Origin: Treponema sp.
Lineage (GTDB): Bacteria; Spirochaetota; Spirochaetia; Treponematales; Treponemataceae
Assembly (NCBI GenBank): GCA_024682655.1
Contig: JAIKYZ010000024.1
Coordinates: 1 to 64,000 of the forward strand
Direction: 5' to 3'
DNA length: 64,000 nt
Each line of letters opens with the position of its first letter. The stretch's first letter is position 1. Shown here in pieces: positions 12,759 through 32,073 of the stretch. Below the pieces are notes generated by a model that saw only the letters and a list, made by a program, of their open reading frames with translations, was not told the DNA's origin and searched no databases. Made by a program: the position numbers and the translations under genes.

Positions 12759-12795
12759 AAAGGCTGTTTTCGCTAGAAAACAGCCTTTTTTATTT
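12759..12795 (+). terminator. Rho-independent terminator of pgk
   Basis: AAGGCTGTTTTC gcta GAAAACAGCCTT with a T-rich tail, 20 bp after the pgk stop codon. A perfect 12-bp stem. Confidence 0.95.
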
Positions 12796-13069: not shown

Positions 13070-15028
13070 ATGAAAAAAAGTATTAAAAAAGTAATATTAT
13101 TTTTAGCTCTATTTTCAATTCAGGTGGGACTGTTTTCAATCGAATTATCTTTTAAATTGTCCCCTGATTTATTATTTCCTTTTCTGACAAATGGTGACGA
13201 AAAATATGGAACTTTAAGTTTTGGCGGCTTCTTCGACACCGGAGTAAATCTTTTTGATTTTCTGAATGTTGGAACTTCACTTGGTTTTTACGGTGTTCCT
13301 ATTGCATCAAAAGAAAGCCTTTTAAGTGATCAGGATCAATACATGTTCTTAGTTCCAATTGGAGCTAGTGTAGGAGCTTATTATTATCCAATTTCCCGAT
13401 TAGAAGTTGGAGCCAATTTTGCAGCCGGTTCAAGTATTGCTTACCGGGGTAGTAATCCTCAGGATAAGTTTCATTATTCGCCTTGGTATAGGGCTAGTGT
13501 AGAAACTGCTTTCCGTATTACACCAGACCTTTCTCTTGCAATGACCGGTTCCTGGTTTGACAGTCAGTATGATACTTACTTTGGCGGTAAAAATGTTTTA
13601 CAGGGCCTTTCTGCAGGAATCTCAATCAAATATAATTTTGATACAGAAAAAACTCTTGGCGCTGTTGATGCAAGTGTTCAGCAGGACGAAAGTGTTTTCC
13701 CACTTTTCTATACAATTTATAAAAACAATTATTTTGGAACAATCACCTTAAAAAATAACGAAAGTGCCGAAATCCGAGATGTTACAGTTTCCTTCAGATC
13801 AGAAGGTTATACAAATGCCGAAATCGAATGTGGAAATATTAAAATCTTAAGAAAACACAGAACAGAAGAAATCCCACTTTGCGCCGACTTTAGCGAAAAT
13901 ATTCTTCAGTTTACAGAAAATGGTAAAATCCCTGGAGAAATTGTTGTCCGCTATGAATTACTTGGCCAGAAGCGTGAATCTGTATCACAGGTAATTATTC
14001 CAGTTTACAACCGTAACCAGGTTAGATGGACAGACCCGGCTGTTATTGCTTCTTACATTTCAAGTTCTGCCCAGGAAATCCTTGAGTTCTCAAAATATCT
14101 TGTTGGGGTAGCAAGAACTTATTTGCGTTCCGGCTTAAACAGAAATATGCAGTTTGCCATGTACGTTTTTGAAGGAATCAGACTTGCAGGAATTAAATGC
14201 GAAACAGATGTTTCAAGTCCTTATGATCAGTATCACTTAGATCCTACTGCTTTGGATTATATTCAGTACCCATACCAGACCATGCTTTACAAAACTGGAG
14301 ATAAAGATGACCTTGGAATTCTTTTAATGGCTCTTTTCCAGTCGGTAGGTATTACTTCATCTTTTATTACAACAAGTGATGATTTTATTGTTCTTTTTGA
14401 TACAGGAATTAATGTTTCAAAAGCAGGTTCTTTATTTGATGGCTTAGATAGAGTTCTTGTTTTTGATAATAATATTTGGATTCCTCTTTCAATGGCTGCC
14501 TTGAACGAAGGTTTTATCAACTCCTGGTATGGAGCTGTTGTCGAAGTTCAGGAATCTAACGAAAAGGGAGAAGAAATTGGTTTTGTAAATCTTTCAGAAG
14601 CCTGGCAGTATTATCCACCAGCAGGATTTTCAAGTGGAGAAAATGTTTCACTTGCTACTTCAGAATCTCAACTTGCATCTGCTGTTGAAACTGATATTGC
14701 CCGCTACATCACAGCTGAATTTGGTCCACAGATTGCTGCTGTTCAAACAAGAATTGTGCAGGAAGGTGCTTCTGTAGATTTATATAACAAACTGGGTATG
14801 CTTTACGTTCGTGCCGGAATGTATACAAGTGCAATTCCAGTTTATCAGATGTCTGCAAAAATGGGTTCTGTAACTGCTATGAACAATCTGGGTAATATTG
14901 CATCTTTGCAGAAAAAATACGCAGAAGCTCTAGCCTGGTATCAAAAAGCCCTGGAATTAGAGCCAGATAACAAAACAGCGCTAAAAAACTTGAATCGAAT
15001 TCAAGCGGATATAGAAAATACAAAATAA
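13070..15028 (+). CDS. Beta-barrel / transglutaminase-like / TPR envelope protein, catalytically degenerate
   Basis: 652 residues. Signal peptide (~1-23, ends GLFS), then a ~180-residue beta-barrel-like region (short alternating strands, e.g. LSFGGFFDTGVNLF), an Ig-like middle (~210-320), a transglutaminase-like fold (~330-510) and TPR helices at the C-terminus (~555-650, ending YAEALAWYQKALELEPDN). The next gene is a paralogue that aligns gap-free around the active site: its GGDCDDL is TGDKDDL here (Lys412 replaces Cys) and its PGH is SDD (Asp438 replaces His). It should fold like a papain/transglutaminase-type peptidase but not catalyse. It may be a scaffold or regulator for its intact neighbour. 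First gene of a probable operon of three. Confidence 0.75.
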   Translation: MKKSIKKVILFLALFSIQVGLFSIELSFKLSPDLLFPFLTNGDEKYGTLSFGGFFDTGVNLFDFLNVGTSLGFYGVPIASKESLLSDQDQYMFLVPIGASVGAYYYPISRLEVGANFAAGSSIAYRGSNPQDKFHYSPWYRASVETAFRITPDLSLAMTGSWFDSQYDTYFGGKNVLQGLSAGISIKYNFDTEKTLGAVDASVQQDESVFPLFYTIYKNNYFGTITLKNNESAEIRDVTVSFRSEGYTNAEIECGNIKILRKHRTEEIPLCADFSENILQFTENGKIPGEIVVRYELLGQKRESVSQVIIPVYNRNQVRWTDPAVIASYISSSAQEILEFSKYLVGVARTYLRSGLNRNMQFAMYVFEGIRLAGIKCETDVSSPYDQYHLDPTALDYIQYPYQTMLYKTGDKDDLGILLMALFQSVGITSSFITTSDDFIVLFDTGINVSKAGSLFDGLDRVLVFDNNIWIPLSMAALNEGFINSWYGAVVEVQESNEKGEEIGFVNLSEAWQYYPPAGFSSGENVSLATSESQLASAVETDIARYITAEFGPQIAAVQTRIVQEGASVDLYNKLGMLYVRAGMYTSAIPVYQMSAKMGSVTAMNNLGNIASLQKKYAEALAWYQKALELEPDNKTALKNLNRIQADIENTK

Positions 15029-15058
15029 TAAAAAGTAAATATTAAAGAAGAGAAAAAA

Positions 15059-18000
15059 ATGTCAGGTAAAAAAGCAAGAAAGTTAAGAAAAAGTAAAAAA
15101 ATCTCAAAGATATCAATCGCAGCCTTAACAGGGCTTTGTATTGCTGCTGCCCCCTTATCAGCAGGCGGGGAAGTTCTGTTAGGTCTTTATCCTCATGTAA
15201 CTTTCCCAGTGTTAAAGTTTGACGATTCACTTAAAACCGGTTTTGGTGGTGGACTTGAACTTACTTACAGACCTTTTACTTATTTTGACCTTTCTCTTTT
15301 AGGAGATTATCAGTACTACCTTTTTGATACTTCCGATAGTGTTGGTAGCTTAAGTCTTTTTAGCGGAGGACTTGGAGCTGCTTATCATTTACCTCTGTCA
15401 GATAGATTAAGTCTTAATATTGGTGCTGATGTTCAGGCCTATAAAGCAAAATATCAGAAATCAGAAGATGATTATTATAATCTGCCTGGAGTAAAAGCAG
15501 GTGCTACACTTTCGCTTTCTTATAAAATTAATCCTTCTGTTGCAGTTTCATCAAAAGCAGGCGCTTCCCACTACAAGGCAGGAAATACAGGTTTAATAAC
15601 AGGATTGGATGTCCAGCCGGGAATTACCTTCAATTTTACAAAAGCCTTTATGAGACCTAAAAATCTTGATATGTCCATGAATGCTTTGGAACCAGTTTTC
15701 CCAGTTTTATATTCCTGGTACGATAACAATTCTTTTGGCTCAGTTTCAATTCAAAATAAAGAAGATGCAACTATTACAGATGTAAAAGTAAGTTTCTTCC
15801 AGCCACAGTACATGGGACAGCCTCAGGAATGTGGAAGTGTAGAAAGTCTTAAGAGGGGTGAATCTCTGGATGTAAATCTTAAGGCCTTCTTTAATGAACA
15901 AATGCTTGAGTTAATAGAAAGAACTGAATGTCAGGCAAGTGTAATCGTTGAATATAAATATCTTGGTCAAAAAAGAGAGCAATCTTTTGCCATGCTGGTT
16001 CCTGTTTATGGACGTAATAATATGTCTTGGGCAGATGACCGCTGTGCTTCAGTATTTGTTTCTTCAAAAGACCCTGCCGCCATGTGGTTTGCAAAATATA
16101 TAACTTCAGTTGTACGCGATAATGTACGTTCCGGAGTTGCCTTAAATATTCAGTATGCAATGGGAATCTTCGAAGCTTTGGACCAGTTTGGATTAAATTA
16201 TGTAATTGACCCAACTTCTGCCTTTGCCGATAACGTAGGTACCGCTTCTATTGACTTCCTTCAGTTCCCTTACCAGACCCTTATGTATCGTGGTGGTGAC
16301 TGTGACGACCTTTCAATCTTAGTTTGTTCACTTTTTGAAGCAATTGGAATTAAAACAGCCTTTATTACAATTCCTGGCCATATTTTTATGGCTTTTGATT
16401 CAGGATTAACAATTGACCAGGCAAAAAATGAATTCCTTTCTTTAGATGAACTTATTCTTGATTACGATAATAATGAAGTTTGGGTTCCTCTTGAAATCAC
16501 TCTTACAGATGAAGGTTTTAACAAAGCCTGGAAAGTTGGTGCCCGTGAGTGGAATCAGTCAGATAAAGATGGAACTGCCATGCTTTATAAAATGGAAGAT
16601 TCCTGGAAAATCTATAAACCTGTAAATGTTCCAGGAGCCAGTTCTCACTTTACACTTCCAGACGAAAAACTTGTAGGAAAACTTTTCTCACACTCTGTTG
16701 ATGAATATATCTTAAAACAGATTACTCCTCAGGTTGTTGCCTTTGAAAGTAAACTTAAAAATAATCAGTCACCAGAACTTTATAATGATTTTGGTGTACT
16801 TTATGCCCGTTACGGACTCTTTAAAAAAGCCGAAGCCCAGTTCAGAGTTGCCCGAAGACAGGATTATTTACCTGCAATTTTAAACACAGCAAATCTCTTC
16901 TATTCTATGAAGGATTTTGGACGTGCTCAAAAATGGTATGAAGAAGTTCTTACCCGCGATGAAGATAATATTCTTGCAATTTTAGGTGTTGCAAGATGTG
17001 CTTATGAAATTGGAAATTATGATGTTTGTGATAAATATTTTGAAATTGTATATAACACAAATCCACAATTAGCAGCAGAGTTTGCCTATTTGAGTGCCTT
17101 TGAAAGCAGTCAGGGCCGAAGTTTTACTTTAGCAGACCGACTTATGAATACAACCTGGCTTGAAAGTAACGATAAACTTCCACAAAATAATCAGGCTCTT
17201 GCCGTAAAAGATTCTTTAACTTCAGAGTCAGATACACTTTTGACAGTAGATTCTGCAAATCCAGTCGATGATTTAGAATTGCCAGACTTTAATCAGGCTC
17301 TTGCCGTTCTTGCACCAGATTCTGCAAATAAACGTTTTGATGACGATGATGATTTCCCACCAGACGATGGTCCTGATGGAGATGGACCAGATCCAGATGA
17401 TGATATTACTTTTGACGAACCTTTACAGGTAGAAAAATCTTATAAGGGTATTCTTTCGCAACTTGAATTTGAAGTTTTATCAACCGAAGAAATTCAGGCA
17501 ATTGCAGAAAAAACTTTTGAAGAAAATCCAGATTTGATTAAAACTCCATTACTTCAGGCTGATGCCCCAGAAAAAATTGCCCAGCTTGAAGAAGATAAAT
17601 CTTTTGAAGAAAAACTTGATTCTGCTGTCCAAAACGCCGAATCATTTGTTTATCCGGAAGAAGTTATCCAGGTTGCAGATTTAACCTTAAATACAGAAAA
17701 TCCAACAGAAAAGGCAAATCTTGAAAACGCTGAATCTTTTGTATATCCAGAAGAAGTTATTGATATTGGTGATTTGACTTTAAGTGATAAAACTCAGGGA
17801 ATTGCCACTGCCCAGCCAACCCTAGAGCCAATTGCCACCCCAACTCAGGAAATTGCCGCCGCACAGCCAACCGTAGAGCCAATTGCCACCCCTAGTCAGG
17901 AAATTGCAGTTGTAGAACAAACCGTAGAGGAAACTGCCACAACAACTCAGGAAATTGCCGCCGCACAGCCAGATTTCCAAGACTCAGATTTCTTGGCAGA

Positions 18001-19003
18001 AGAGTTAACAACAGAAGAATCTACAGATATAGAATTCAAAGTAGCTGACACCGGTCTTTCTCAAACGCCAATGCTTTCAAAGCCAGAAGAAGAAATCAAA
18101 GACCGCGCTGTCCCAAGATTTACAAAACAGCCTTCAGAAGAATGGGCTCCTCAAGAAGCTTATACTGCTGAATCAATTCCAGGTATGAGATCTTTTGAAG
18201 AAGAAATGGGTGAATATCAAAACGAAAAAGCCTTCCTCTACCAGGATGAATTAGACTTTGCCTTAAATCCAGAAGAAGATACAGAAGAACACGACCAGGA
18301 ACTTCAAGTTTCAGAGCAAATTGCAATGGCAGATTTACCAGTTGTAAATCCATTCTCAAGCTTCCTTTCAGAAGAAGCTGCTCAAAAGGTGGAAGAAATT
18401 ACAAATTACTCTTTGGAGAAAGAAGAAGCTAAAGCAGAAGAAGAAAAGTCAATAATTTTGGCTTCGGTAAAAGAAACAGAGCCAGCAGAAAAGGCCGCCA
18501 CCTCAGTTAATACTGCCGCCCCAGCTAATTCAAGCGCAGCCACAGAAAATACTGCAGCTACAGTAAACACTGCCGCCCCAGCTAATTTAAGCGCAGCCAC
18601 AGGAAATACCGCCGCCGCCACAGTTAATACTGCTGCCCCTGCTAATTCAAGCGCAGCTACAGTAAAAACTACCGCCCCAGCTGATTCTGCCTCAGTTGAT
18701 AAAAACCTGGCCCTCGCAGATAAGGCAGAGTCAGAAAATAAAGCTACTCAAAGTACAAATGATTCAGATTTAATTGAATCTAAAAATACAGAAAACAAAA
18801 CTAATACTGAAAGTTTAGTTAAAAATACAATTAAAAATGCACAAAAATCTGAAGGCGAAAGCAAGGTAAAAGAAGCAAAATCTAAAAAAATTACCTTAAT
18901 TTCAATTTTAGTGGGAGTTGTTGCGGGAGCAGTCCTAGCTTTTTCTGCTTCAAAAAAAACAAAAAAAAAGGCAAAAACAATAGAAGGTGAGAAAGATGAA
19001 TAG
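15059..19003 (+). CDS. Beta-barrel / transglutaminase-like / TPR protein with long flexible tail and C-terminal TM anchor
   Basis: 1314 residues. Basic N-region and signal peptide (to ~36), barrel-like region (~37-200), Ig-like segment, transglutaminase-like domain with Cys415 in GGDCDDLSIL and His441 in PGHIFMAF plus a downstream Asp (VWVPLE region), then TPR (~575-690). From ~760 a 500-residue low-complexity acidic/Pro/Ala/Thr region follows with internal repeats: ESFVYPEEVI twice, EIAAAQPTVEPIATP variants, NTAAPANSSAAT variants. It ends in one hydrophobic helix, SILVGVVAGAVLAF, and a Lys-rich tail. Inference: the barrel sits in the outer membrane and the flexible tether reaches an inner-membrane anchor. 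It overlaps the giant gene downstream by 8 bp. Confidence 0.8.
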   Translation: MSGKKARKLRKSKKISKISIAALTGLCIAAAPLSAGGEVLLGLYPHVTFPVLKFDDSLKTGFGGGLELTYRPFTYFDLSLLGDYQYYLFDTSDSVGSLSLFSGGLGAAYHLPLSDRLSLNIGADVQAYKAKYQKSEDDYYNLPGVKAGATLSLSYKINPSVAVSSKAGASHYKAGNTGLITGLDVQPGITFNFTKAFMRPKNLDMSMNALEPVFPVLYSWYDNNSFGSVSIQNKEDATITDVKVSFFQPQYMGQPQECGSVESLKRGESLDVNLKAFFNEQMLELIERTECQASVIVEYKYLGQKREQSFAMLVPVYGRNNMSWADDRCASVFVSSKDPAAMWFAKYITSVVRDNVRSGVALNIQYAMGIFEALDQFGLNYVIDPTSAFADNVGTASIDFLQFPYQTLMYRGGDCDDLSILVCSLFEAIGIKTAFITIPGHIFMAFDSGLTIDQAKNEFLSLDELILDYDNNEVWVPLEITLTDEGFNKAWKVGAREWNQSDKDGTAMLYKMEDSWKIYKPVNVPGASSHFTLPDEKLVGKLFSHSVDEYILKQITPQVVAFESKLKNNQSPELYNDFGVLYARYGLFKKAEAQFRVARRQDYLPAILNTANLFYSMKDFGRAQKWYEEVLTRDEDNILAILGVARCAYEIGNYDVCDKYFEIVYNTNPQLAAEFAYLSAFESSQGRSFTLADRLMNTTWLESNDKLPQNNQALAVKDSLTSESDTLLTVDSANPVDDLELPDFNQALAVLAPDSANKRFDDDDDFPPDDGPDGDGPDPDDDITFDEPLQVEKSYKGILSQLEFEVLSTEEIQAIAEKTFEENPDLIKTPLLQADAPEKIAQLEEDKSFEEKLDSAVQNAESFVYPEEVIQVADLTLNTENPTEKANLENAESFVYPEEVIDIGDLTLSDKTQGIATAQPTLEPIATPTQEIAAAQPTVEPIATPSQEIAVVEQTVEETATTTQEIAAAQPDFQDSDFLAEELTTEESTDIEFKVADTGLSQTPMLSKPEEEIKDRAVPRFTKQPSEEWAPQEAYTAESIPGMRSFEEEMGEYQNEKAFLYQDELDFALNPEEDTEEHDQELQVSEQIAMADLPVVNPFSSFLSEEAAQKVEEITNYSLEKEEAKAEEEKSIILASVKETEPAEKAATSVNTAAPANSSAATENTAATVNTAAPANLSAATGNTAAATVNTAAPANSSAATVKTTAPADSASVDKNLALADKAESENKATQSTNDSDLIESKNTENKTNTESLVKNTIKNAQKSEGESKVKEAKSKKITLISILVGVVAGAVLAFSASKKTKKKAKTIEGEKDE

Positions 19004-22000
19004 AATTGTTAAAAAATTAATTGTAAGTTTAGGTGGGATCCTCTTATTAACTTCTTTAGCAACTTCCTGTAAAAACTGGATGGCAAGCGATCAATTTTTG
19101 TCTGCCATTGAAAGTGATGTTAGCGTTGCTAATGCACAAAAGATAAACGTATATCTTCGTTATGCAAATACTAAAATGGGTACAACCGCCCCAGTTAACT
19201 CTGACTGGCTGGAAGAAAAAGTTGGTGTTTCTTTTAGTATTTCTGCAACAACCAATGATGATTACGCCTTTGTAAAATGGGCTGCCTTTAGTGTAGAAGA
19301 CTTCCCAACTTCAAAACAGTATTCAAATTTCATCTATTCTTCTTATGATGATTACAAAAAAAATTACAGTGGATATGAATATTCAAGCGAAGAGGTAAAA
19401 TTTACCGACCCTTATTCAAACTCAACTACAGTTACTGTAAATGTAGAAAGCGATAGAACAGTCTTTATTATGCCAATTGTTTCTGCCCGTCCTGTTTATG
19501 TAACTTCAAACCCAGAAGACAATGCCACTAACGTAGTAAAGAACATGACTGTTCGTATTCTTTTCTCAAAACCTCTTGATGAATCTTCTTTGACCGGTGC
19601 TTTTACAGTAAGTCAGGGACCAATCGTACTGTCAGAATCAAACAGTGATTATGTTGATATTACAGACAATTTCCAGGAACCAATTTTAAGTAAAAGTAAA
19701 AAAATGGTTACCTTACAGCAAAAAGAAGGTCCTGAATCAAATCCTCAGCTTTATTATTTTGATGCCTTCCAAAAAATTCTTATTAATATTTCAAACGAAA
19801 TTAGAGACAGCGATGGAAATGCCATGGCCGAAGGTGCAACAATCACATTTAAAACAAACGATAAGACCGATACCGTTGCTCCAAAAATCACAGTTTTAAA
19901 AGCAAGTACAATACTTGAAGACGATTCTAGTGTAGACTTCTCAAGTGCTTATGATTATGCAGATTCTGTAAATGGTGGTTCAACAAGAATTCAACCTTCT
20001 GCAATTTCTGATTTTGATGCCGCTCTTCAAACTTACTTTAAAGATGCAAACAATAAAGAAACAAGAATTGCTGCAATGTACTCACAAAGAACAACAGGTC
20101 ATGTTTACCTGGACATTGAAGCAACAGAATATACAGAAGATTCTGGTACCGCTACTGGTGATGATGCTTCTGGTTCTACAATTACAATTAATTCAACTCT
20201 TGTTGTTAATGCAGACGGAACAATTGCAGATAATGGTTCTAATAAAGAATCAATCTACACTTATTCAGATGCTTCTTCATATACCTTTATTAGTGGAAAT
20301 AATAATGCCGTTACTTCTGATGTTACTTATAAAGAAGAAGTTGACGAATTCGGTAATGTAAAATCTGTTAAGGGTATTCTTGTAGATTACGATTTGAACT
20401 TCCAGGATAAACTTAACGACGGTCAGGAAGTTCCAGACGGTCTTTATAGAATTGATATTTGGGCAGTTGATGCAAACGGTAACGATGGTTCTACACAAAA
20501 TCGTATTACTTCAATGTACGTAATTAAAGATACAACTCCACCAGATGTTACAACAGAAGCTAAAAAGGTTGAAACTTATTCAGATTCAGCACCATACGCA
20601 TATTATAATGCAGAAACTTTAGCCACCCTTAAATTTAAAGTAGGCGAAAATAAAGAAATTGTAGATTCAACAACTGAAAAACTTGCCTGCGATGTTTCAA
20701 AAATCAAATGGCTCTTTAGTACTTCTTCTACAAGTCCTAAGGCAAGTGATTCTAACTGGTCTTACATTACTCAGGATACAAGTGGTAAAGTATTCTCTAC
20801 CGCAAAAGCTCCAGAAAGTGATGGTCCTGCATCTGTTTACGTATTCTTAATGGATGATATGAATAATATTTCTCAGGCCCAGGAACTTGATTCTGTTTAT
20901 TACGATAATACAGTTCCAGAAATTGGAACAATTGAATGGATTTCTGCTTCAACATTAACAGCCGATGCTCCAATTACAGTAAACTCTACACAAAATCAAT
21001 ATATGGAAAAGGCTTTAAGAATTCCATTTACCGAAGCTTATTCAGGACTTAAACGCCTTACTCTGGAAATTAAAAACGAAAGTGGTACTTCAGTTTCTAC
21101 AAATCCAATTGCCAGCGGAGAAAATGCCACAGAAATTTACTATCTTAACTCAGATCTTCAGGAAGCCCTAAAACTTGACTGGGAATCAAAGACCGATAGC
21201 GATGGAAATACCTTTGTTGAATTACAGATTCCTTCTTCTTCAGAATTAACAAATCTTACAAGCGGATATCTTTTCATTGCAAATTTACATTTCAGCCAGA
21301 ATCTTGATGCAATTCTTAATTTAAAATTTAATCTTTATGATGCAGCCTTAAATAAGACCGCAGATATGAAAACTACTTTCTCTTATGATAATACTGCTCC
21401 ACTTGTTGAAAGTATTACACTAAATGATTTAGTAGAAAGCACTCCTTATGATGGTTCTGCTTCTAAACAATTCCTTTCTAAGAAAGGCTTTACAATTGAT
21501 TCTTCTTCAAGGATTCAAAATACCGCAAGCATTACCTTAGAAATCAAAGAAAGTGGTTCTGGTGTAAATGTAATTACTCTTAAAGATGACATTAATCTTA
21601 CAAGTAATACAATTGTTTTACTTGGCCAGGAAGAAATTGATTCAAGCCAATATCAGCTTGATACAAGTAAAAATACAATTACCTTTACAGACTTTATTGA
21701 ACCTGTTTTACAGTCAGATTCAAGCTTTGAAGTTACAATTAAAAATCTCCACTACGCAAATACTGGTTCAACAAAAAATAAAGCAAATATTCAACTTACA
21801 GACTTTATCCTAAAATCAAGTACTACAAGCGATAGCGACACCCCAGATCTTTATGTTGATAATTCAAATCCAGTTTTTGAATCAATCACAATTAAAGATT
21901 TAGATTCAACAAATACAGAAACAAATACAAAATATACAAATCAAGATACAGTAAATCTTATAGTAAAGCTTAAGTCCGAAAGTGATTCTGGTCTTAAGAC

Positions 22001-25000
22001 AATTACACTCACAAACGCCAAATTTACTGACGATTCAAAAATCTATCTTGGAAATGATGCTACAGGAACAGAAATTGCTTCTACTATTTCCAGCGATAAA
22101 ACTACATTAACTTTAACAAAGGTGGCTTCTGAAACTTCTAGTCAAACTTACTTTATTACAAACCTTAAATTTACAGATTCAAGTAACGGAAAGAAAACAA
22201 TTTCTCTTACAGCAAAAGATTTAGTTGGCTGGGAAAGTGAATCTACAAGTGCAAGTATTACATTAGATAACGTAGCTCCAGAACTTTCTGGCGATTTAAG
22301 TTGGGTAGTTACAGATGGAAAGAGCACCGCAGGAATTACAAATCAAAATATTATAAGTGGACAAAAACTGCTTGTTCCATTTACCGAAGTTACATCCGGA
22401 ATTTCTTCTATTAAATTTGTAGTTACAGATAATACAGATACTGTTTACCAGACCCCTGTGGTTTACGATAGTGCCGAAAAATACTTTACGCTAACTTATG
22501 TTAATGGTGACGATACTTCTTCTTATGGTACAACAAGTTCTTCTGAACCTGGCGATAGCTTTACTTGTAATGGCGAAAAAACTGGTACTTATGAAATTCA
22601 AAATATTGCCATTGCAGATAACGTAACCGAAGGAACTTATACAATTAAAGTAATTCTTACCGATATTGCAGAAAATGTTCAGACTGTAGAAAAAACAATT
22701 GAAATTTCAAATGATTCAACAAAACCTGTAGTTTCTAAGATTGAAATAGAAGAACTTATAAAAGCAGGAGAATTAGGAATTACAGCTGGCTCTAATTTAT
22801 CTGATACTTATTGGGTAACAAGTGATTATTTAGACTTAGATTCAGGTACAACAAAACTTTCTTTATATATCACAATAAACGAAACAAATTCTGGTCTTAA
22901 AACACTAACTCTTGGAAGTCCTTCAACAAATACTAATTATGGTAGTCCATGTCTTTCTACTAATTCTGCTATTTACTTAGTTGGAGAATCAGGCCTAACT
23001 GAAATATCTAGTTCTACTTACAGCCTTTCTTCTAACAAGAAAATAATAACCTTTACAAGTGGAAATTCAAATTTAAAGGGCGAAAATTTAAAATTTAAGA
23101 TTACTAATGTTGCTTTTAATAAGCAAGAGAATATAAATTTAATTTCTGTAAAGGCTAGCGATCTTGCTTTGAATGAATCTGAATCAGTGGATGAAGTTTA
23201 CTTAAAAGATAGTCAAACTAGTATTCAAAGTGGTACAACAGGAGGTTTCTACTTTAATACAACAAGTCCACAAATTTCTACTCTTACTTTGGTAGATAGA
23301 GAAACTACTAATGGAATTGCAGCCCAGACAGGTTATACTAACGAACAAATTGTAGACCTTAAAATGGAATTATATATGCCATCGGATTCTATGAATGGAT
23401 ATAATTCCTTTACTTTGGATGGTGCAAAATTTATAAAAGATGGTAGTGATGCAAGTATAATTACAATTGGCACTACAGAAATAACTTCAGATAGTTATGA
23501 AATTTCAGATGACTTAAAGACAATTACCTTTAAAAATTCAGATGGACCTAAAGTATTGCGTAGTTCTTCATGTAAAAATCTTACTTTTGAAAATATCTTA
23601 CTTGATTCAGACGAAAATACCTCGCAAACTATTGGCGTAACTACTAAAGATTTAAGTGGCATGGAAAGTGCTAAAAAAACATACAATATTACTCTTGATA
23701 CAGAAGAACCATTGTGGGATGGTGCCACAAAAGAAGATCCTACTAGTGGTTATGGACCTTATGTTTATGGTAATGGTGCTACAGACCTTAATTTTGTATA
23801 TCCAAGACCTACAGGTGGAACAAGTGATAAGTCTGCTATTGGGGTTCATTTTAATACTAAAAATTCTGCTGGAACATACATTCGTTATTTCTATAAATAT
23901 CCTAATAAAACTTTCCGTTTTGGTATGGATTTTACAGACAATGTTGCCTTGAGGGATAATTCTACAAGTGGATCTGAAAGTTTACTTTATATTAAATCTT
24001 CTGATTCCTCGGACTATACTAATTTAGCAGTAAATACTACAAGTACAACAAGCCTACTTAAAGTATCAGGTAGTTCAGATACAAGTAAGCAAGTTGTAGC
24101 TAATTTAGCTTCCGGTACTTATGTAGTAGCCGATAAAGCCGGTAATATTTCTAAAGAATATACCTTTAATATTGTAGAAGATTATACAAGACCAATATCT
24201 TCTGCTGGATATAACGCTATAAGATATGCTACTTTGGCCTTACCTGATGATGGTGCAAATGTTTACAGACCAGATTCTGTAACTTCAACGTCTTATGTAG
24301 ACTCTACAACTGAAGATGTAGACTCTACAACTGAAGATAATTATGACTTTAAGGATGCTGGTAAAAATTCTTGTGGCGATTCACTTTACTCATATCATTA
24401 TGTAAAAAGAGCAGGTAAGTATAAAATAGTTGTAAAATATGCAACTGGTTTAACTACTGCTGATATTCAGATAAGTGGCAACAATACCCCTTCGCGTTTT
24501 GGTGCTTTGTCTGATGATGTTGTAGGATCTACAACTAGTGCACCTCTAGATTACTATTCAGTTACTCATTGGTATGGAGTATACCCATACATAAATTCCA
24601 ATACAATAAAATACCAGCCAGCCTTCCCAAATAACACTACAACTCCAAGTGGACAGACCATTCAAAAATATTTTGGTTTTGAAGCAAATGAAACATTAGG
24701 TGATGCTGACTGGGATACTGAACATTCTACTTGGCATAAATACAAAAAAGATAGTGGTGACTATACAGATGGTGATAATCATGACACCATTGTTAGTAGA
24801 GTAAATTCTGAAGGAAATATCGAAATTGATATTCCAGATACCAACATTCCTCCATTAACACTTTTATTAAAAGATGGTTGCGGTAACTTAAACTATATGG
24901 TCCTAACTTTCTATGATGACCGTGTTACAAAGGCAAATTCTGATGGCCAAGGTGAATCCTTTACTGCATACTACGGTGTTTCTTTCTACACTGATCCAAA

Positions 25001-28000
25001 ATTAGGTAATTCATCAGATACAAGAAAAGTATTGCAAAATGTTGCCGCTTATACCGGTGGTGGTGCCTCTGAATATACTTTTGGTGATACAAGCTATAAA
25101 TGGGGAAATCAGACTTCCTCTTACACGGATGCTGATGGAAAGGGTGGAACTTCTGAACTTGGTTATTTAATGAGAGATAATGTAGAGAAGTTAACATATT
25201 ACAATCCTAGTAATAGTCACATTGGTACTAAACTTTATAAAATTGCCCTTACTGTAAATGGCGAAACAGGTAAAACTTTTGATTCTTGTGTACCTACAAC
25301 AGATACCTCAGAATATACCGCAAGGGCTAAAATTCTTTGGACTACTGAATCAGGCACACCTTCTTACAGTGATTTTTCGGGTACAAATACTTCCGATTGG
25401 TTATATTGTCAAGCATCATCCAATGGAGATGTACACTTCTTCTTTGATTATCCAACTAGTCTTACCCAAGGAACTCCTTATTATTTCTGGTACTTAGTAG
25501 AAGACCGTGTAGGTAATTATGATATTAATACAATTGTTAATGACCTAGATGATGAATATAACCGCTGGGTTTATGATGCAAAGGCACCGACTATAAAAGT
25601 AAGATATGATGGTCGTTCTCCATGGTATTATAGTTTAAGTGAAGTTGATAAATTAGTTCCTGCTAATAATGGTTATAAATCATATCAGAACGGTAAAAAT
25701 GCTTATGTTTGGGGACCAGTTTCAAGAAGAAGTAGTGCTGAATTTAATCGAATGGAAGGTAATGGACTTTTAACAAGAGACACAACCCTTGATAAAACAG
25801 GTTTCGATAGCATATTTAGTCAAGTAGAATATTCTGGCGGCACATTTAATTATGAATATCTACCAGCCTTTGATCTTGATATAACTGATACGACTGGTAT
25901 TTATGCTTATTTTTATGTTGTACTCCCACCTAGTGAAGATTTGCGCTGGCCTTCAGTTGTTTCTCCAAAAACTATTGATTCATATAATAGTGTTACATCA
26001 GATACTTCTTCTAGTCCTTGGTTTTATGGTAAGGGTGTTGAAGGTTGTTTAAGAGAAATTGGCTCTGCTATAAGTGATACAAACTATAAGGTTTATGCTT
26101 ATCGTTCATCTGGCAAATACGAGGGAACCTTTACTGGTACCAAGATTTTGCCTCAAGTACCTGTATTAAATTTAAATGAAAGTTCATCTTCAACTACAGG
26201 AAGTAGAATTGCATTATTCGTAATGGATTGGGTAGGAAATATTGATTCATGTCCTTTGGGATCTTTTGGTACTAGTGGCCCAATTTGGTTTAAAGATTCT
26301 ACTGCTCCAACTGGTTATTCATATAGTGATACTGATATACAATATCTTGATTCATATGTAGAAGGTAGTCACTATATTAAACGTGAGTATAGTGAATCTA
26401 ATGGTTATTATATAAATTATTTACGTATTGCTGGCAGTGGCAAGGATGAAAATAGCCCAAATTTGAAGATTTATATTCCAATTTCTCCATTATCAACATC
26501 TACAGATGTAGCGTCAGGATGGTATTATGACAAGTCAGGCTCTGGAATTGCAGGATTCGATTTAAGAAGATATGATGATTCTGGAAATCCTTTATTAATA
26601 GATATAGGAAATGCTTGTTGTGATGATAACGGACCTTATTTAGAACTTTCTTATAGTGATTATAGTTTTTTGACTTCTTTGGCAGAAAATGAAAAAAAAT
26701 TTATCGCTTTTAATATATATGACAATGTAGGAAATTGTAGTTATGGCAATTTCACTTCTTGCATTGATTCTACTCCACCAGATTTGTCACCAACAATTTC
26801 TCTTTCAAATAGTGATTATCTTCATAAAAAAGGTCACACCGGTAAATATACAAAATCCTTCTCTCTAAGTTCAACAGAAGAAAATGGAAAAATAGATTCA
26901 TCTAAAATTATAACTTCTTCTAAAACTCCAGAAGATGATGATTGGACTACTTACAGTGATATTTACTATGTAGACCCAACCGGTGCTTCAAGTCTTCGTA
27001 TTCAGTGTACTAATGGTGCTGAATGGGCTTCTGACACAAGAGCTCTTTATTTAAAGAAATGGTCTGGTTCAGCTTGGGATGCGGCTTCTGCTGCTTATTC
27101 TTCTTCAAGTGCAACAACTTCTCTTTCTTTAAGTTATGCATCTGAGGCATATTACCAATTCTCAATTAGTGATATGACAGGTAATACTACTTATTATCAT
27201 TTTAAGACAGTTTCAGATACAACTATGCCAGCATTTAAAGACGGTTATCCAAAAGTCGTGCCTACGAAAGGTATTGCTCAAGTAAATGGTGATACTCTCT
27301 ACTACAATCAGATTGATGTTCAAGTTTCTGGAACCGATGAAGGTAGTGGTGTAAGGTCTTGTTTATATAGGACTAACATCTCTAGAACAAATAAATTCAT
27401 TACTGACTCTAACAAGTATGATTTTACTGATTTGACATTCTCTAGTGATTTTTATACTAGTGGTTGGTATACAAAAGAGGATCCTACTACAATCCCTCTT
27501 AATCCAGAAGTTGAAGGTACAAAGGAATGCCTTTGGGTAGGAATAAGAGATGGTGTACTTTCTTATGGGGACTCTTCTTATGATTACAATTGTTTCACAC
27601 CAAAGATGTTAGCTAGTACATACAATGCAACATATATTTGTCACGATGAAACTGCCCCTACAGTAAAAGAAGGTACCTTTACTGCAAAGTATCAACCTCA
27701 TTATATAGAGTGGGATTCAGATAAGTTCAACACTACTTATGATTCAGATGCTTCTACACTTCTCATGGAAATTACTGATTCTAGAACAACTAAGGTTACC
27801 TATACCCCTGCTGCCCAAGATTCAAGTGGAATTTTAGGTTGGATAGTACAAGATAATGAAGAAAAACCAACTGTTGATTCTTCTACAGATTTGGCTGATC
27901 TTAAAACATCATTTACTTATACTTGTGGAACTGGTAATGATATTCCTCTTGATACTAGTGAAGTCGTAAAATATTATTTTGCAGTCGATTATGCAGGAAA

Positions 28001-30857
28001 TGTTTCTGACCCTATTGCTGTAACTTATAAATACTCAAATAAATATATTCCAGAAATTACTGATATTTCTTATGAGGGTATAGTTCAGGTTGATAGTGTT
28101 AACTATTACAAATCACCAGTTCTTACCTTTACTGTATCTTCTGGTGTTAAATCTACTCCTCAAAGTATTTTGATTACTTGGTCAGACTCAGATTATGAAG
28201 AATATGATTTTGATGATAATACAGTTACTGGCCCAATAAGCTCAGATGGTAAATACATTTACACTTGTAAATTAAGCAAATTACCAAGTGGTTTAAGTGG
28301 AAATACTCTTTCTGCTTGGGTTTCAAATAAATATTCATATTCTGCACAAGAAAAAGAATTAACTTATAGTGGCGTTAATAGTTATACAGAAGAAACTGAT
28401 GTACCAAATGTTACAAAAGCTGAAATTTCTGCTAATTCGGAAGAAAAAACTTATTACGATTCAGATTCAGATCCAGATAAGGCAACACTTTATTTCAATC
28501 CAGATCAAACAAGTATTTCCTTAACTGTTACAGGAATTACAGATGCTACTTCTGGTTACTATAATTCTTCTCTTGTAACAGATGAAGCAGATCTTGTAAT
28601 GCCTGAATCTGAAAGTACTGCAATTTCTATTACCGCTCCAAGTTCGGATTCTGCTGTTTACAAACTTTATGCCTGGGATAAGGTAGGAAATTATAAGTTT
28701 GTAAAAGATATAACCTTTGTAAAAGATTCTACTGCTACTGAAATTCAAAAAGTTACCCCTTCAAGTAATGTGATGACAGGTTTCTATTATAATTCAGATT
28801 CAGATGCCAAAAAGTTCTTCTGGAATGGTGAGCAATCAATCACCTTTACTTCTTATGTAAATGATTCAGATAATGATATTTCTTACTATTATTATAATGA
28901 CGATAAAGAAGATAATCGTTCTACAAGTGGAGAATTTACAATTACACCATCAGCTGAAGTAACAGAATATAATTTCTATGCAGTAGATAGAGTTGGTAAT
29001 GTAAGCCAAGCCTATACAATTACTTCGGTAAATGATACAAGTGCTCCAGAAATTCCAACTGTAACATTTGGCTCTGTAGATGATATTTATCCTGTAGATA
29101 ATAATTCTACTGCCCTTACTTCTGGAAAGGTTTACTATATTAAATCTTCTACTTATTCAGAAAATGGTATTGGAATTAATATTTCTTCTAGTGATACAGG
29201 ATCAGGACTTTCTAGTGTTGGAATTGAAGGCCAGACAGCAGCCGCAACTTACACTCTTAAACCAAGTGAACAAACAACTTACACAATAAAAGCAACTGAC
29301 AAGCTTGGTAATTCAAGTACATTCACTCTTATCATCAGTCCAGATTCAATAGGCCCTCAGCCAACCGGAACAAGTTCTCATGCTCCAAATTATGGAGGTG
29401 GAACAACACCTAAGTTTGATTCTGATGGCGATGGTGTCGCAGAAGCTGTATTAGGTGTTGTAGGAACTGATGGTTCTTATACAGCTACTGGTACAATTAA
29501 CCCAGTCTATGGTTCTGGATTAGAAAATGGTTCAGAATATTCTACCAACTTTTATGATGAAGGCTTACAATTAAATGTACCTGTTGCAAGTGATGATATT
29601 GTGGCCTTTGGTCTTGTTACTGGCCCATCATCTTCAGAAGATCCAACTAAACCTACAGAATGGACAGAAATTTCAGAGAGTAATTATTCTGAAGGTATAT
29701 TAACTGTTACTGTTCCAGAAATAACAGATGAATATTCATTTATCTTCCTTTGGATGAAAGATAGAGTAAATAATTTGTCTGTATTCAATCTTGGAAATCC
29801 TTCTAATTGCTGGAGTAACTGGTGGATTCAGAATACTCCTTCTACAAGTGCTAGTTATTCGGTAAGTGCGGGAAGTTATTCTAATAGTAATGGCACACCT
29901 GTTGCAAATGTTGCAGTTTCAATTTCTGGACTTTCGAGTGCAGGTGCTATTTCTCAAATTACACTTGAAGGTTTAAGTACAACACAATCTTATGAAGCTT
30001 ATTCACAAAGTAGTACTGCAACTTTAACTTGGGCTGTAACATCGATTGTAGTAACAACTTCAGAAACAACTTATACAGTAGATTCAACTAATGCAGTTCT
30101 AAATTGTGAAAATAATGATGGAACATTAACATTCAAAGATTCTGCTGGAAATGCTCATCCATATCTTCATACTGGTGGAATTGTTACAGTAAATCTTACT
30201 TGTTCTGGTTCTAATTCTGATTATAATTTAATTAATGCAGGTGCCTCTGCTCCAACTCCAACTCTAACTTCTGTTACAGACTTTGGTGGAAACGCTGTTA
30301 CTCCAAGTATTGCAAACGGTAGTTTAAGAAGTCGTATTGCCAGAGGTCTTACAAGCTTTACTTCAAAAGTAAAATCAAGTGTTGGCTTTACAAGTAGAAC
30401 TAGAGTAGAAAAAGTAGCTTCTAATAAGACAAGTTCTGTAAGAAAGCAGAAAACTCCTGTAAAAGTTGCAGAAGTTAAAGAGCTCCCAACTTCAACTATC
30501 CAGGATATCCCTGAATTCCAGTCAGAAGATATTAAGGCTCAGTTGAATAGAAGTTTCCAGGCTGGAACTATTGCTTTGGATCAAATTACTTCAGATAATA
30601 ACCAGGGTACATCAGATAGTCTAAAAAAGAACCAGGGTTCTATTCAAAATGTTGCACCTTTGTTCGTAGATGATGCTAATAATAAGGTTAAACTCGAAAA
30701 TAGAGTAACTTTATCTAAGGCAGATGGAATTTTGGAAGTAAGTGAACCTGTTGCTAATATCGATTGGGTATTAATTATCACAGTTTTAGTGGGTGTTGTA
30801 ATCTTTGCAATTTGTGCTGTCAGTATGATAAGAAGACTTACTAAAAAAGGTGAGTAA
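18996..30857 (+). CDS. Giant Ig-like repeat lipoprotein with C-terminal membrane helix (~3953 residues)
   Basis: The preferred start is ATG 18996: AGGTGAG lies 6-7 bp upstream, whereas the track's GTG at 18987 has no ribosome site. A lipoprotein signal ends LATS-Cys at residue 25. Early on comes a Big_5-type Ig-like domain (VYVTSNPEDNATNVVKNMTV ... TFKTND), then about 15-20 Ig-like modules each opening with D-x-T-x-P (DTTPPDV, DNTAPLV, DSTPPDL, DETAPTV and others). The C-terminus has a basic stretch (~3750-3800) and a single helix LIITVLVGVVIFAICAV followed by RRLTKKGE. The anchor shares LVGVV with the upstream gene's anchor. Probably a surface or periplasm-spanning adhesin-like protein. Function not known. 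A 21-bp exact tandem repeat lies at 24297-24338. Confidence 0.8.
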   Translation: MNRIVKKLIVSLGGILLLTSLATSCKNWMASDQFLSAIESDVSVANAQKINVYLRYANTKMGTTAPVNSDWLEEKVGVSFSISATTNDDYAFVKWAAFSVEDFPTSKQYSNFIYSSYDDYKKNYSGYEYSSEEVKFTDPYSNSTTVTVNVESDRTVFIMPIVSARPVYVTSNPEDNATNVVKNMTVRILFSKPLDESSLTGAFTVSQGPIVLSESNSDYVDITDNFQEPILSKSKKMVTLQQKEGPESNPQLYYFDAFQKILINISNEIRDSDGNAMAEGATITFKTNDKTDTVAPKITVLKASTILEDDSSVDFSSAYDYADSVNGGSTRIQPSAISDFDAALQTYFKDANNKETRIAAMYSQRTTGHVYLDIEATEYTEDSGTATGDDASGSTITINSTLVVNADGTIADNGSNKESIYTYSDASSYTFISGNNNAVTSDVTYKEEVDEFGNVKSVKGILVDYDLNFQDKLNDGQEVPDGLYRIDIWAVDANGNDGSTQNRITSMYVIKDTTPPDVTTEAKKVETYSDSAPYAYYNAETLATLKFKVGENKEIVDSTTEKLACDVSKIKWLFSTSSTSPKASDSNWSYITQDTSGKVFSTAKAPESDGPASVYVFLMDDMNNISQAQELDSVYYDNTVPEIGTIEWISASTLTADAPITVNSTQNQYMEKALRIPFTEAYSGLKRLTLEIKNESGTSVSTNPIASGENATEIYYLNSDLQEALKLDWESKTDSDGNTFVELQIPSSSELTNLTSGYLFIANLHFSQNLDAILNLKFNLYDAALNKTADMKTTFSYDNTAPLVESITLNDLVESTPYDGSASKQFLSKKGFTIDSSSRIQNTASITLEIKESGSGVNVITLKDDINLTSNTIVLLGQEEIDSSQYQLDTSKNTITFTDFIEPVLQSDSSFEVTIKNLHYANTGSTKNKANIQLTDFILKSSTTSDSDTPDLYVDNSNPVFESITIKDLDSTNTETNTKYTNQDTVNLIVKLKSESDSGLKTITLTNAKFTDDSKIYLGNDATGTEIASTISSDKTTLTLTKVASETSSQTYFITNLKFTDSSNGKKTISLTAKDLVGWESESTSASITLDNVAPELSGDLSWVVTDGKSTAGITNQNIISGQKLLVPFTEVTSGISSIKFVVTDNTDTVYQTPVVYDSAEKYFTLTYVNGDDTSSYGTTSSSEPGDSFTCNGEKTGTYEIQNIAIADNVTEGTYTIKVILTDIAENVQTVEKTIEISNDSTKPVVSKIEIEELIKAGELGITAGSNLSDTYWVTSDYLDLDSGTTKLSLYITINETNSGLKTLTLGSPSTNTNYGSPCLSTNSAIYLVGESGLTEISSSTYSLSSNKKIITFTSGNSNLKGENLKFKITNVAFNKQENINLISVKASDLALNESESVDEVYLKDSQTSIQSGTTGGFYFNTTSPQISTLTLVDRETTNGIAAQTGYTNEQIVDLKMELYMPSDSMNGYNSFTLDGAKFIKDGSDASIITIGTTEITSDSYEISDDLKTITFKNSDGPKVLRSSSCKNLTFENILLDSDENTSQTIGVTTKDLSGMESAKKTYNITLDTEEPLWDGATKEDPTSGYGPYVYGNGATDLNFVYPRPTGGTSDKSAIGVHFNTKNSAGTYIRYFYKYPNKTFRFGMDFTDNVALRDNSTSGSESLLYIKSSDSSDYTNLAVNTTSTTSLLKVSGSSDTSKQVVANLASGTYVVADKAGNISKEYTFNIVEDYTRPISSAGYNAIRYATLALPDDGANVYRPDSVTSTSYVDSTTEDVDSTTEDNYDFKDAGKNSCGDSLYSYHYVKRAGKYKIVVKYATGLTTADIQISGNNTPSRFGALSDDVVGSTTSAPLDYYSVTHWYGVYPYINSNTIKYQPAFPNNTTTPSGQTIQKYFGFEANETLGDADWDTEHSTWHKYKKDSGDYTDGDNHDTIVSRVNSEGNIEIDIPDTNIPPLTLLLKDGCGNLNYMVLTFYDDRVTKANSDGQGESFTAYYGVSFYTDPKLGNSSDTRKVLQNVAAYTGGGASEYTFGDTSYKWGNQTSSYTDADGKGGTSELGYLMRDNVEKLTYYNPSNSHIGTKLYKIALTVNGETGKTFDSCVPTTDTSEYTARAKILWTTESGTPSYSDFSGTNTSDWLYCQASSNGDVHFFFDYPTSLTQGTPYYFWYLVEDRVGNYDINTIVNDLDDEYNRWVYDAKAPTIKVRYDGRSPWYYSLSEVDKLVPANNGYKSYQNGKNAYVWGPVSRRSSAEFNRMEGNGLLTRDTTLDKTGFDSIFSQVEYSGGTFNYEYLPAFDLDITDTTGIYAYFYVVLPPSEDLRWPSVVSPKTIDSYNSVTSDTSSSPWFYGKGVEGCLREIGSAISDTNYKVYAYRSSGKYEGTFTGTKILPQVPVLNLNESSSSTTGSRIALFVMDWVGNIDSCPLGSFGTSGPIWFKDSTAPTGYSYSDTDIQYLDSYVEGSHYIKREYSESNGYYINYLRIAGSGKDENSPNLKIYIPISPLSTSTDVASGWYYDKSGSGIAGFDLRRYDDSGNPLLIDIGNACCDDNGPYLELSYSDYSFLTSLAENEKKFIAFNIYDNVGNCSYGNFTSCIDSTPPDLSPTISLSNSDYLHKKGHTGKYTKSFSLSSTEENGKIDSSKIITSSKTPEDDDWTTYSDIYYVDPTGASSLRIQCTNGAEWASDTRALYLKKWSGSAWDAASAAYSSSSATTSLSLSYASEAYYQFSISDMTGNTTYYHFKTVSDTTMPAFKDGYPKVVPTKGIAQVNGDTLYYNQIDVQVSGTDEGSGVRSCLYRTNISRTNKFITDSNKYDFTDLTFSSDFYTSGWYTKEDPTTIPLNPEVEGTKECLWVGIRDGVLSYGDSSYDYNCFTPKMLASTYNATYICHDETAPTVKEGTFTAKYQPHYIEWDSDKFNTTYDSDASTLLMEITDSRTTKVTYTPAAQDSSGILGWIVQDNEEKPTVDSSTDLADLKTSFTYTCGTGNDIPLDTSEVVKYYFAVDYAGNVSDPIAVTYKYSNKYIPEITDISYEGIVQVDSVNYYKSPVLTFTVSSGVKSTPQSILITWSDSDYEEYDFDDNTVTGPISSDGKYIYTCKLSKLPSGLSGNTLSAWVSNKYSYSAQEKELTYSGVNSYTEETDVPNVTKAEISANSEEKTYYDSDSDPDKATLYFNPDQTSISLTVTGITDATSGYYNSSLVTDEADLVMPESESTAISITAPSSDSAVYKLYAWDKVGNYKFVKDITFVKDSTATEIQKVTPSSNVMTGFYYNSDSDAKKFFWNGEQSITFTSYVNDSDNDISYYYYNDDKEDNRSTSGEFTITPSAEVTEYNFYAVDRVGNVSQAYTITSVNDTSAPEIPTVTFGSVDDIYPVDNNSTALTSGKVYYIKSSTYSENGIGINISSSDTGSGLSSVGIEGQTAAATYTLKPSEQTTYTIKATDKLGNSSTFTLIISPDSIGPQPTGTSSHAPNYGGGTTPKFDSDGDGVAEAVLGVVGTDGSYTATGTINPVYGSGLENGSEYSTNFYDEGLQLNVPVASDDIVAFGLVTGPSSSEDPTKPTEWTEISESNYSEGILTVTVPEITDEYSFIFLWMKDRVNNLSVFNLGNPSNCWSNWWIQNTPSTSASYSVSAGSYSNSNGTPVANVAVSISGLSSAGAISQITLEGLSTTQSYEAYSQSSTATLTWAVTSIVVTTSETTYTVDSTNAVLNCENNDGTLTFKDSAGNAHPYLHTGGIVTVNLTCSGSNSDYNLINAGASAPTPTLTSVTDFGGNAVTPSIANGSLRSRIARGLTSFTSKVKSSVGFTSRTRVEKVASNKTSSVRKQKTPVKVAEVKELPTSTIQDIPEFQSEDIKAQLNRSFQAGTIALDQITSDNNQGTSDSLKKNQGSIQNVAPLFVDDANNKVKLENRVTLSKADGILEVSEPVANIDWVLIITVLVGVVIFAICAVSMIRRLTKKGE
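24297..24338 (+). repeat. 21-bp perfect tandem duplication inside the giant gene
   Basis: GTAGACTCTACAACTGAAGA T is present twice in a row, encoding VDSTTED twice. In frame, so copy number could vary without breaking the gene. Confidence 0.85.
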
Positions 30858-30896: not shown

Positions 30897-30926
30897 TTGA
30901 CAAAATAAATCTTTTAAAAATATAAT
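30897..30926 (+). promoter_or_regulatory. Promoter of the FecR-like genes
   Basis: TTGACA (30897-30902), 18-bp spacer, TATAAT (30921-30926): both hexamers are perfect consensus. The transcript would begin near 30933 and have a ~138-nt leader with a TATTGT...ACAATA hairpin before the first start at 31071. This separates the FecR-like pair from the giant gene. Confidence 0.8.
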
Positions 30927-31070
30927 TTAGTGGTTTGGGTTTTGGAAAATCAAGAGGATTTTTCAATATAATTAAAAATAGGTTTGTATTACGTCGATAC
31001 GTATTACATAGAAATTATTTGTATTTGCATTTTAGTATTGTTAATAAAATACAATAATGGGGGTATAAAA

Positions 31071-31490
31071 ATGAAAAAATGGGGATTGTTTCTTGTTTTA
31101 GCTCTTATGGCAGCAAGTTCAGTTTTTGCTGCAGGTTTAGGTAGCTACAAGGTAGAATCAATTACTGGTAAAGTTCAGTACGAAGCTGCACCAGGAACAT
31201 GGAAGAGCATTTCTGTAGGACAGGAATTATCTGCTTCAACAGTAGTTAATACAAGTCTTAATTCAAGTCTTGTTATTAATGTAAATGGTAAGTCTGTTAC
31301 TATCAAGGCTATGCAGAAGGGAACAGTAGAAAGTCTTACTGCTGTTGCATCTACAGGTTCTTTTGGAATCAAAAAAGGTGCTACTTTAAGTAATTCTGCA
31401 AACGATAAACTTGAAGGTTCAGCAAAATCAGTTCAGACTGCTTCTTCTCGTGCTTCTGAAGCAAAAGAAGATATCGACTGGGACGAGTAA
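31071..31490 (+). CDS. FecR-like secreted protein 1
   Basis: 139 residues from ATG 31071 (MKKWGLFLVLALMAASSVFA signal peptide, GGGGG upstream). The longer track start at 30984 lies in the leader and has no ribosome site. After the signal peptide comes a FecR-type beta domain: VESITGKVQYE, W-x-SISVGQELSASTVVNTS, LVINVNGKSVTIKAMQKGT. The C-terminus QTASSRASEAKEDIDWDE is nearly identical to the next gene. In other bacteria such FecR modules are periplasmic or surface domains; in spirochaetes they often neighbour CHASE2 cyclases, as here. Role unknown. Confidence 0.75.
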   Translation: MKKWGLFLVLALMAASSVFAAGLGSYKVESITGKVQYEAAPGTWKSISVGQELSASTVVNTSLNSSLVINVNGKSVTIKAMQKGTVESLTAVASTGSFGIKKGATLSNSANDKLEGSAKSVQTASSRASEAKEDIDWDE

Positions 31491-31534
31491 TAATTAATTC
31501 AAATTAAATTAAAGAAAATTAAAGGAAAAAAGTA

Positions 31535-31957
31535 ATGAAAAAGATTTTTGCAGTTATCGCAATTTTATTAGTAGCTGCTACTGCACTTTTTGCAGAAAAA
31601 AGAGCTACAATGAAAGTAGAATCTTTAGTAGGTAAAGTAACTTACGAAGTTTCTTATGGTCAGTGGGCTGAATTAAAAGAAGGTATGGTTATTGATGCAG
31701 AATCTGTAATCAATACTGGTCTTAATTCAACTTTAACAGTTTTACTTTCTGATGGAAAAACTGTTAGTGTAAAACCTATGAAAAAGGGTAAGATTGCAGA
31801 AATTGCTTCTACATCAAATAATCAGTTGGGTGTAAAAATTGGTTCAAAAATTACTTCATCTGATTTAAATGATGCTCTTGAAAGTAGTAAAAAAGCAATT
31901 CAAACCGCTTCTTCTCGTGCTTCTGAAGCTAAAGAAGATGTTGAGTGGGAAGAATAA
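31535..31957 (+). CDS. FecR-like secreted protein 2
   Basis: 140 residues, tandem paralogue of the preceding gene, 44 bp downstream with AAAGGA before the ATG. Signal peptide (to ~20, ATALFA), then VESLVGKVTYEV, INTGLNSTLTVLLSDGKTVSVKPMKKG, and the shared C-terminal QTASSRASEAKEDVEWEE. The strictly kept acidic/aromatic tail suggests a binding function, perhaps the contact to a partner. Ends the short operon at a terminator. Confidence 0.75.
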   Translation: MKKIFAVIAILLVAATALFAEKRATMKVESLVGKVTYEVSYGQWAELKEGMVIDAESVINTGLNSTLTVLLSDGKTVSVKPMKKGKIAEIASTSNNQLGVKIGSKITSSDLNDALESSKKAIQTASSRASEAKEDVEWEE

Positions 31958-31977
31958 TATTTTGTAGCTTTCTTATA

Positions 31978-32020
31978 AAATCCTGTGTTTGGTAAAAAAT
32001 TACCTGATACAGGATTTTTT
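31978..32020 (+). terminator. Rho-independent terminator after FecR-like pair
   Basis: AAATCCTGT...ACAGGATTT with inner GGTAA/TTACC and a run of seven T. Confidence 0.9.
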
Positions 32021-32073
32021 TATTTAAATCAAAATACAAATCATTAAAAAAATTATAAAAATTAGGAGAAATT

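Follow-up and report, generated by a model that had tools for sequence, protein, structure and literature searches.

A three-gene module in Treponema sp. encodes what we propose, with a probability of about 0.5, to be an enzyme and pseudo-enzyme pair that is carried on outer-membrane barrels, anchored in the inner membrane and acts on its own giant envelope lipoprotein, either cutting or cross-linking it. The genes lie in a window of 64,000 nucleotides, the whole stretch of DNA analysed, as three consecutive ORFs: P1, P2 and the giant lipoprotein ORF (Table 1). Computational analysis established their gene order, the domain folds, the division into an active and a dead copy, the C-terminal anchors and the co-occurrence of the genes. 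An earlier note on this DNA had treated the three as a set and made its case depend on the order being kept elsewhere, and the order is indeed widely conserved in spirochaetes.

Table 1. Features of the module and its borders (positions in the window)
Feature	Position	Strand	Basis or remark
Intrinsic-terminator-like hairpin	12759..12788	+	13-bp stem then T run, 3' of pgk
P1, 652 aa	13070..15028	+	signal peptide, 8-strand-type barrel, Ig-like, putative transglutaminase-fold pseudo-enzyme, TPR
P2, 1314 aa	15059..19003	+	barrel, Ig, predicted transglutaminase-fold enzyme, TPR, tether, C-terminal TM
P2 8-stranded OmpA-like beta-barrel, residues 38-192	15170..15634	+	AF2 pLDDT mostly about 85-94
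P2 Ig-like beta-sandwich, residues 203-323	15665..16027	+	AF2; directly 5' of catalytic core
P2 transglutaminase-fold domain, residues 327-520	16037..16618	+	Transglut_core, triad, Foldseek
P2 putative catalytic Cys415	16301-16303	+	
P2 putative catalytic His441	16379-16381	+	
P2 putative catalytic Glu479	16493-16495	+	
P2 TPR arm, residues 536-700	16664..17158	+	AF2 and Foldseek to consensus TPRs
P2 acidic tether, ~575 residues	17159..18883	+	alignment, composition, block search
Conserved tether block	about 18107-18244	+	PRFT..PS.EWAPE.A[YF]T..IPGMRSF.EEMG..QNEKAFL
P2 C-terminal membrane helix, then basic tail	18890..18952	+	
Giant lipoprotein, 3953 aa from ATG 18996	18996..30857	+	
Giant lipobox cysteine, LATS-C	19068..19070	+	sequence
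Giant Big_5 Ig-like domain, residues 168-290	19488..19856	+	PF13205 E 1.3e-7; AF2
Giant array, ~25 Ig-like modules, each ~145 aa	19875..30056	+	boundary-motif spacing; AF2
Giant C-terminal membrane helix and basic tail RRLTKKGE	30765..30830	+	
Sigma-70-type promoter	30897..30926	+	perfect match TTGACA-18-TATAAT, before FecR-like/CHASE2-cyclase genes

The module has pgk as its 5' neighbour, with GGDEF-EAL genes further upstream beyond pgk, and a FecR-like/CHASE2-cyclase group as its 3' neighbours. The hairpin appears to set the module apart from pgk, and the promoter match suggests that the module ends at 30857; given these two features, the three genes look like a transcription unit of their own, the terminator and the promoter being consensus matches and not proof. 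That the genes overlap, as the earlier note had said, was confirmed for P2 and the giant, which share 8 nt when the giant starts at ATG 18996. This ATG is most likely the start, rather than the listed GTG 18987, because the same 8-nt overlap with P2 recurs in several orthologues; the GTG itself overlaps the apparent ribosome-binding site of the giant. The downstream group (30984-34878) comprises two FecR-like small exported proteins and a CHASE2 adenylate/guanylate cyclase, and homologues adjoin or sit near the module in five further genomes (G028, G055, G056, G050 and G047), a possible regulatory link.

P2 opens with a signal peptide followed by a barrel, as had been read from the sequence for both P1 and P2. 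An AlphaFold (AF2) model of P2 residues 1-715, made from 58 homologues, has a mean pLDDT of 89.7 and shows the mature protein beginning with an 8-stranded outer-membrane barrel; Foldseek against the PDB returned OmpA, NspA and OmpW, with a best target TM-score of 0.81 (1qjp). Transglut_core (PF01841) matches 23/23 members of the core alignment (best E 4.3e-6), while the window P2 taken alone gives 14.9 bits (E 0.033) where the Pfam cut-off is 23 bits, and Foldseek with the P2 model finds transglutaminase 2 at E 1.2e-3. The profile match together with the triad indicates that the P2 core is a transglutaminase-superfamily domain. With that superfamily (Transglut_core, DUF553; TG2) it shares the catalytic fold, the Cys-His order and a TG2-like beta-sandwich before the core, whereas it differs in its third residue, where alignment to the W-x-P-x-[DE]-x-T segment gives Glu and not Asp, in its very low sequence identity and in being envelope-anchored. 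The N-terminal part of the NCBIfam model for the anti-phage protein ProA (NF058533) is also matched, over P2 residues 228-500, by 23/23 core members (best 1.4e-11). The window core scores 27 bits against a cut-off of 1500 bits for this 1903-aa model, P2 covering model positions 14-291 only, and a literature search for ProA returned nothing relevant.

P1 has the layout of P2 minus the tether and the C-terminal helix. Across 151 aligned sequences, 83/83 P2 and 0/68 P1 have the full Cys415-His441-Glu479 triad (P2 numbering). The P2 count is favoured by the use, for some P2 loci, of a PGHI search pattern that contains the His, a bias from which the P1 counts are free. Among the 68 P1 homologues none has the His, none the Glu and only seven retain the Cys. 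Judged from this alignment, P1 is a dedicated and presumably catalytically dead copy, and only P2 keeps the catalytic residues. The "barrel-enzyme pair" of the earlier note thus stands as regards both barrels, with the first protein now read as a pseudo-enzyme. When the Ig and core region is analysed with FastTree, P1 and P2 fall on either side of a single branch (support 100), long branches being noted, which fits a single old duplication; given this split, the pairs would later have been copied as units. PADLOC gave a single match, a weak TPR match for P1.

The partnership of the genes is conserved, P1, P2 and the giant following one another not only within the genus but also in other families of the order. 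P1 lies 5' of P2 in 63 of the 72 loci where the contig continues, and a lipoprotein lies directly 3' in 50/55 loci whose P2 gene has room downstream. Across 59 genomes of the genus, the giant is present in 13/13 with a P2 orthologue versus 3/46 without (Fisher p 1.4e-10, relatedness ignored). Furthermore, several separate paralogous P1-P2 pairs also adjoin InlB/Big_5-type lipoproteins. The genome of the window itself holds a second P1-P2 pair (L006, G000:C117:7792-11333) that is without tether, TM or adjacent giant lipoprotein.

Beyond the core, P2 continues into a TPR arm, which several orthologues lack, some of them being also without most of the tether. The earlier description of a flexible acidic tether holds in that the segment (residues about 700-1275) is long and contains 22% D+E. 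Part of it is the block PS.EWAPE.A[YF]T..IPGMRSF.EEMG, common to 7/50 P2 proteins of >900 aa, which suggests that the tether is more than filler; a search of the same genome for a second copy of the block found none. In other families the P2 C-terminus has by eye a ConA-like look, for which Pfam gave no match. Even the P2 proteins with the shortest linkers have about 140 residues, which could stretch to about 50 nm at most, between core and helix, so membrane spanning would be possible in all.

A single hydrophobic helix followed by a basic tail does end both P2 and the giant, as had been claimed. It occurs as a C-terminal TM in 34/59 complete P2 proteins, most of these having the basic tail. 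The LVGVV that the two window helices have in common, earlier taken as a shared anchor, was rejected as a homologous motif: a 5-mer is shared between the two helices in 0/9 other genomes and in 3/90 mismatched pairs, and shuffles of the window pair share one in 0.46%, so that the identity is attributed to chance. What is shared is the design. An N-terminal signal with a single C-terminal helix and a basic tail was found in 26/620 distinct ORFs of at least 300 aa from all fetched loci, namely 18 P2 and eight giants and no other protein; the layout is common and specific to the module proteins. In one relative (L083) a SPOR domain (27.9 bits, cut-off 21) stands in place of the P2 helix, and the P2 tails of L040, L076 and L077 are similar to it, with no Pfam call. 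SPOR domains bind peptidoglycan, and P2 of some relatives is apparently held to the wall in this way; from this replacement the P2 end seems to be selected for fixation on the inner side. The arrangement resembles OmpA/OprF in combining an 8-stranded barrel with a periplasmic arm fixed further in, the arm ending in SPOR in L083 and probably also in L040, L076 and L077. It differs in that the arm carries the enzyme core and TPRs and ends here in an inner-membrane helix, not in OmpA_C, a peptidoglycan-binding domain for which P2 gave no match.

The giant bears the lipid-Cys that had been pointed out, in the lipobox LATSC, and this position is invariant in 36 aligned giants; lspA and lgt are both present in the same genome, as for a bacterial lipoprotein. 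In Treponema ruminis (G214, L076) there is lgt and a giant with a lipobox, yet no lspA (PF01252) match, in agreement with an earlier report (PMC8049484); lspA is present in the eight other genomes tested. A conserved N-terminal domain precedes Big_5, and an AF2 model of the first 700 aa shows Ig-like beads. These beads resemble the giant adhesin SiiE, and the boundary motif of the modules occurs 14 times where 2.4 are expected. The Ig-like repeats of the earlier note are therefore borne out by Big_5 and the AF2 beads, with a count of about 25 in better agreement than its 15-20. Like SiiE, LigA/LigB and SbsC the giant is a long chain of Ig-like modules; unlike them it has an acylated N-terminus and a C-terminal membrane helix, together with the conserved N-terminal domain and Big_5 and a dedicated enzyme pair. 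Complete giants of the genus span 2696-6396 aa (n=11), and 11/11 have the C-terminal helix and basic tail, the helix sequence itself not being conserved. Anchoring of the giant by this helix, also proposed earlier, would apply here and within this genus only. The helix is absent in more distant relatives, and three outgroups (L090, L094 and L097) have the P2 helix but no giant helix, hence double anchoring is not essential. Since some 25 modules would exceed 100 nm when stretched, far more than the depth of the periplasm, the giant presumably runs along the cell or reaches outside it, which would make it periplasmic or surface-located; the surface fibre considered in the earlier note would be one possible form. 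Giant N-termini also occur at G009:C25:192584-193159 and G013:C81:1233-2177, in genomes without a P2 orthologue, G013 having a stand-alone homologue of about 970 aa.

In the mechanism that we propose, P1 and P2 would be seated in the outer membrane by their small OmpA-type barrels, with the Ig, transglutaminase-fold and TPR parts held in the periplasm. In the OmpA topology whatever follows the barrel is periplasmic, and where a single helix is followed by a basic tail, the tail faces the cytoplasm; by these analogies P2 most likely joins the outer and the inner membrane, its C-terminal helix being fixed in the latter at the end of the long acidic tether. P1 would be the dead partner and P2 the working cysteine enzyme, and we argue that an invariant triad beside an ancient dead twin points to kept chemistry with a non-catalytic partner. 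The giant would be held by the lipid at its N-terminus and, in this genus, by a second anchor, a C-terminal helix in the inner membrane; it is the constant neighbour of P2 and may well be its natural substrate. P2, steadied or regulated by P1, would either cut the giant from its inner anchor, as LapG does LapA, or cross-link it, as TG2 would, so that the module would control when and where the giant chain is fixed or released. We infer the locations of the proteins, the pairing of P1 with P2, the substrate and the type of reaction. The earlier picture of an envelope-spanning arrangement with its own processing enzyme gains from the P2 model, the positive-inside tails and the SPOR domain that replaces the helix; for the processing enzyme, the invariant triad and the gene partnership speak, with the giant as its probable substrate. 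Counting against our reading are the giants that occur in G009 with no enzyme and in G013 with no P2 orthologue, the second enzyme pair that has no adjacent giant and the sub-threshold Transglut_core score of the window P2. A stronger version, in which an outer-membrane-barrel enzyme that is also an integral inner-membrane protein works with a barrel pseudo-enzyme as a transenvelope machine to set the attachment of a doubly membrane-fixed giant, we put forward only tentatively.

The Lap system comprises the protease LapG, the giant adhesin LapA and the receptor LapD (PMC3032545, PMC4359373). Both it and the module pair a transglutaminase-fold cysteine enzyme genetically with a giant repetitive envelope protein, whereas in the module the enzyme is fused to an outer-membrane barrel, is paired with a pseudo-enzyme and brings a C-terminal anchor of its own, a lipoprotein stands in the place of the giant adhesin and no LapD-type neighbour is conserved; the module works partly like the Lap system and is not a member of it. 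A true Lap-like switch, in which a LapG-like P2 cuts a giant surface adhesin for release upon a second-messenger change signalled by the nearby cyclases or c-di-GMP enzymes, seems to us unlikely. It would agree with an enzyme of this fold adjoining a giant Ig-chain protein of surface type, with the likeness of the beads to SiiE, with a weak match of the LapG family model NF045674 in 2/23 core members at 0.005 and with the GGDEF-EAL genes upstream and the FecR-like/CHASE2 cyclase genes at or near the module in six genomes. However, in the relatives examined the upstream GGDEF-EAL genes are not kept as neighbours, and Lap membership on their account was rejected; the LapG model matches only those two members, and PF06035 gives no match. 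The giant is moreover a lipoprotein rather than a type I secreted adhesin with an N-terminal plug, and the P2 enzyme is itself membrane-anchored. Rather unlikely, in our view, is a purely structural role, in which the proteins would space and connect the outer membrane, the wall and the inner membrane or act as guides for the periplasmic flagella, and the transglutaminase fold would bind and do no cutting. Anchors at both ends, the SPOR domain as a substitute, tether lengths that permit spanning, the TPR and Ig binding folds and a P1 that retains its fold without catalysis would all suit this. Against it, the invariance of the three catalytic positions across very distant relatives argues for kept chemistry, some P2 are without TPR and most of the tether, and many relatives in the genus have no module.

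An aid to export or assembly, in which the barrel-TPR pair would act like Slam and bring the giant lipoprotein to the cell surface or fold it there, appears improbable. An outer-membrane barrel with TPRs does adjoin a dedicated surface-type lipoprotein, and there is a weak TPR_Slam match, but this TPR match is generic and several P2 orthologues have no TPRs; Slam has a 14-stranded barrel after its TPRs, whereas the P2 barrel precedes them and has 8 strands and a narrow pore, not those of a translocon. Very improbable, finally, is that the C-terminal helix and basic tail form a cleavable sorting signal, the helices being lost from the mature proteins. The layout is like that of sortase-type and CTERM-type signals, and three giants have an LPKTAN-like motif (L038, L043 and L079, which have in common DQLAM.LPKTANT about 50 residues before the helix). 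Among the 11 complete giant tails, however, no motif just before the helix is shared and LPKTAN occurs in those 3 only, and the layout is restricted to module proteins among the 620 ORFs. A general C-terminal sorting-signal family was likewise set aside, there being no other carriers and no motif.

If the proposed mechanism is right, one polypeptide physically joins the outer and inner membranes by a barrel and a helix, an arrangement for which we know of no described system. Spirochaetes would then devote a pair of enzyme and pseudo-enzyme to giant envelope proteins, and the organisation of periplasm and surface in the treponemes that abound in rumen and gut would become easier to put to the test. 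In P1 and P2 nature would also provide a clear example of an active enzyme kept beside an inactive twin of ancient origin.

A literature search, with most subscription journals outside its scope, found no paper describing the module, and collections of phage and plasmid records gave no match, so that a phage or plasmid origin of the enzyme was set aside. The distribution is patchy: homologues were found in 12/120 Spirochaetota genomes drawn evenly, and many relatives in the genus are without the module altogether. It occurs mostly in rumen and gut treponemes, and named species such as Treponema bryantii, T. ruminis and T. zioleckii carry it. An order-level P2 relative is present in a metagenome bin (L113, DYPP01000076.1) whose label, Treponema denticola, looks doubtful. 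In another genome a P2-like Ig/transglutaminase segment (L150, G077:C6:24000-24626) lies within an open frame of 8256 aa.
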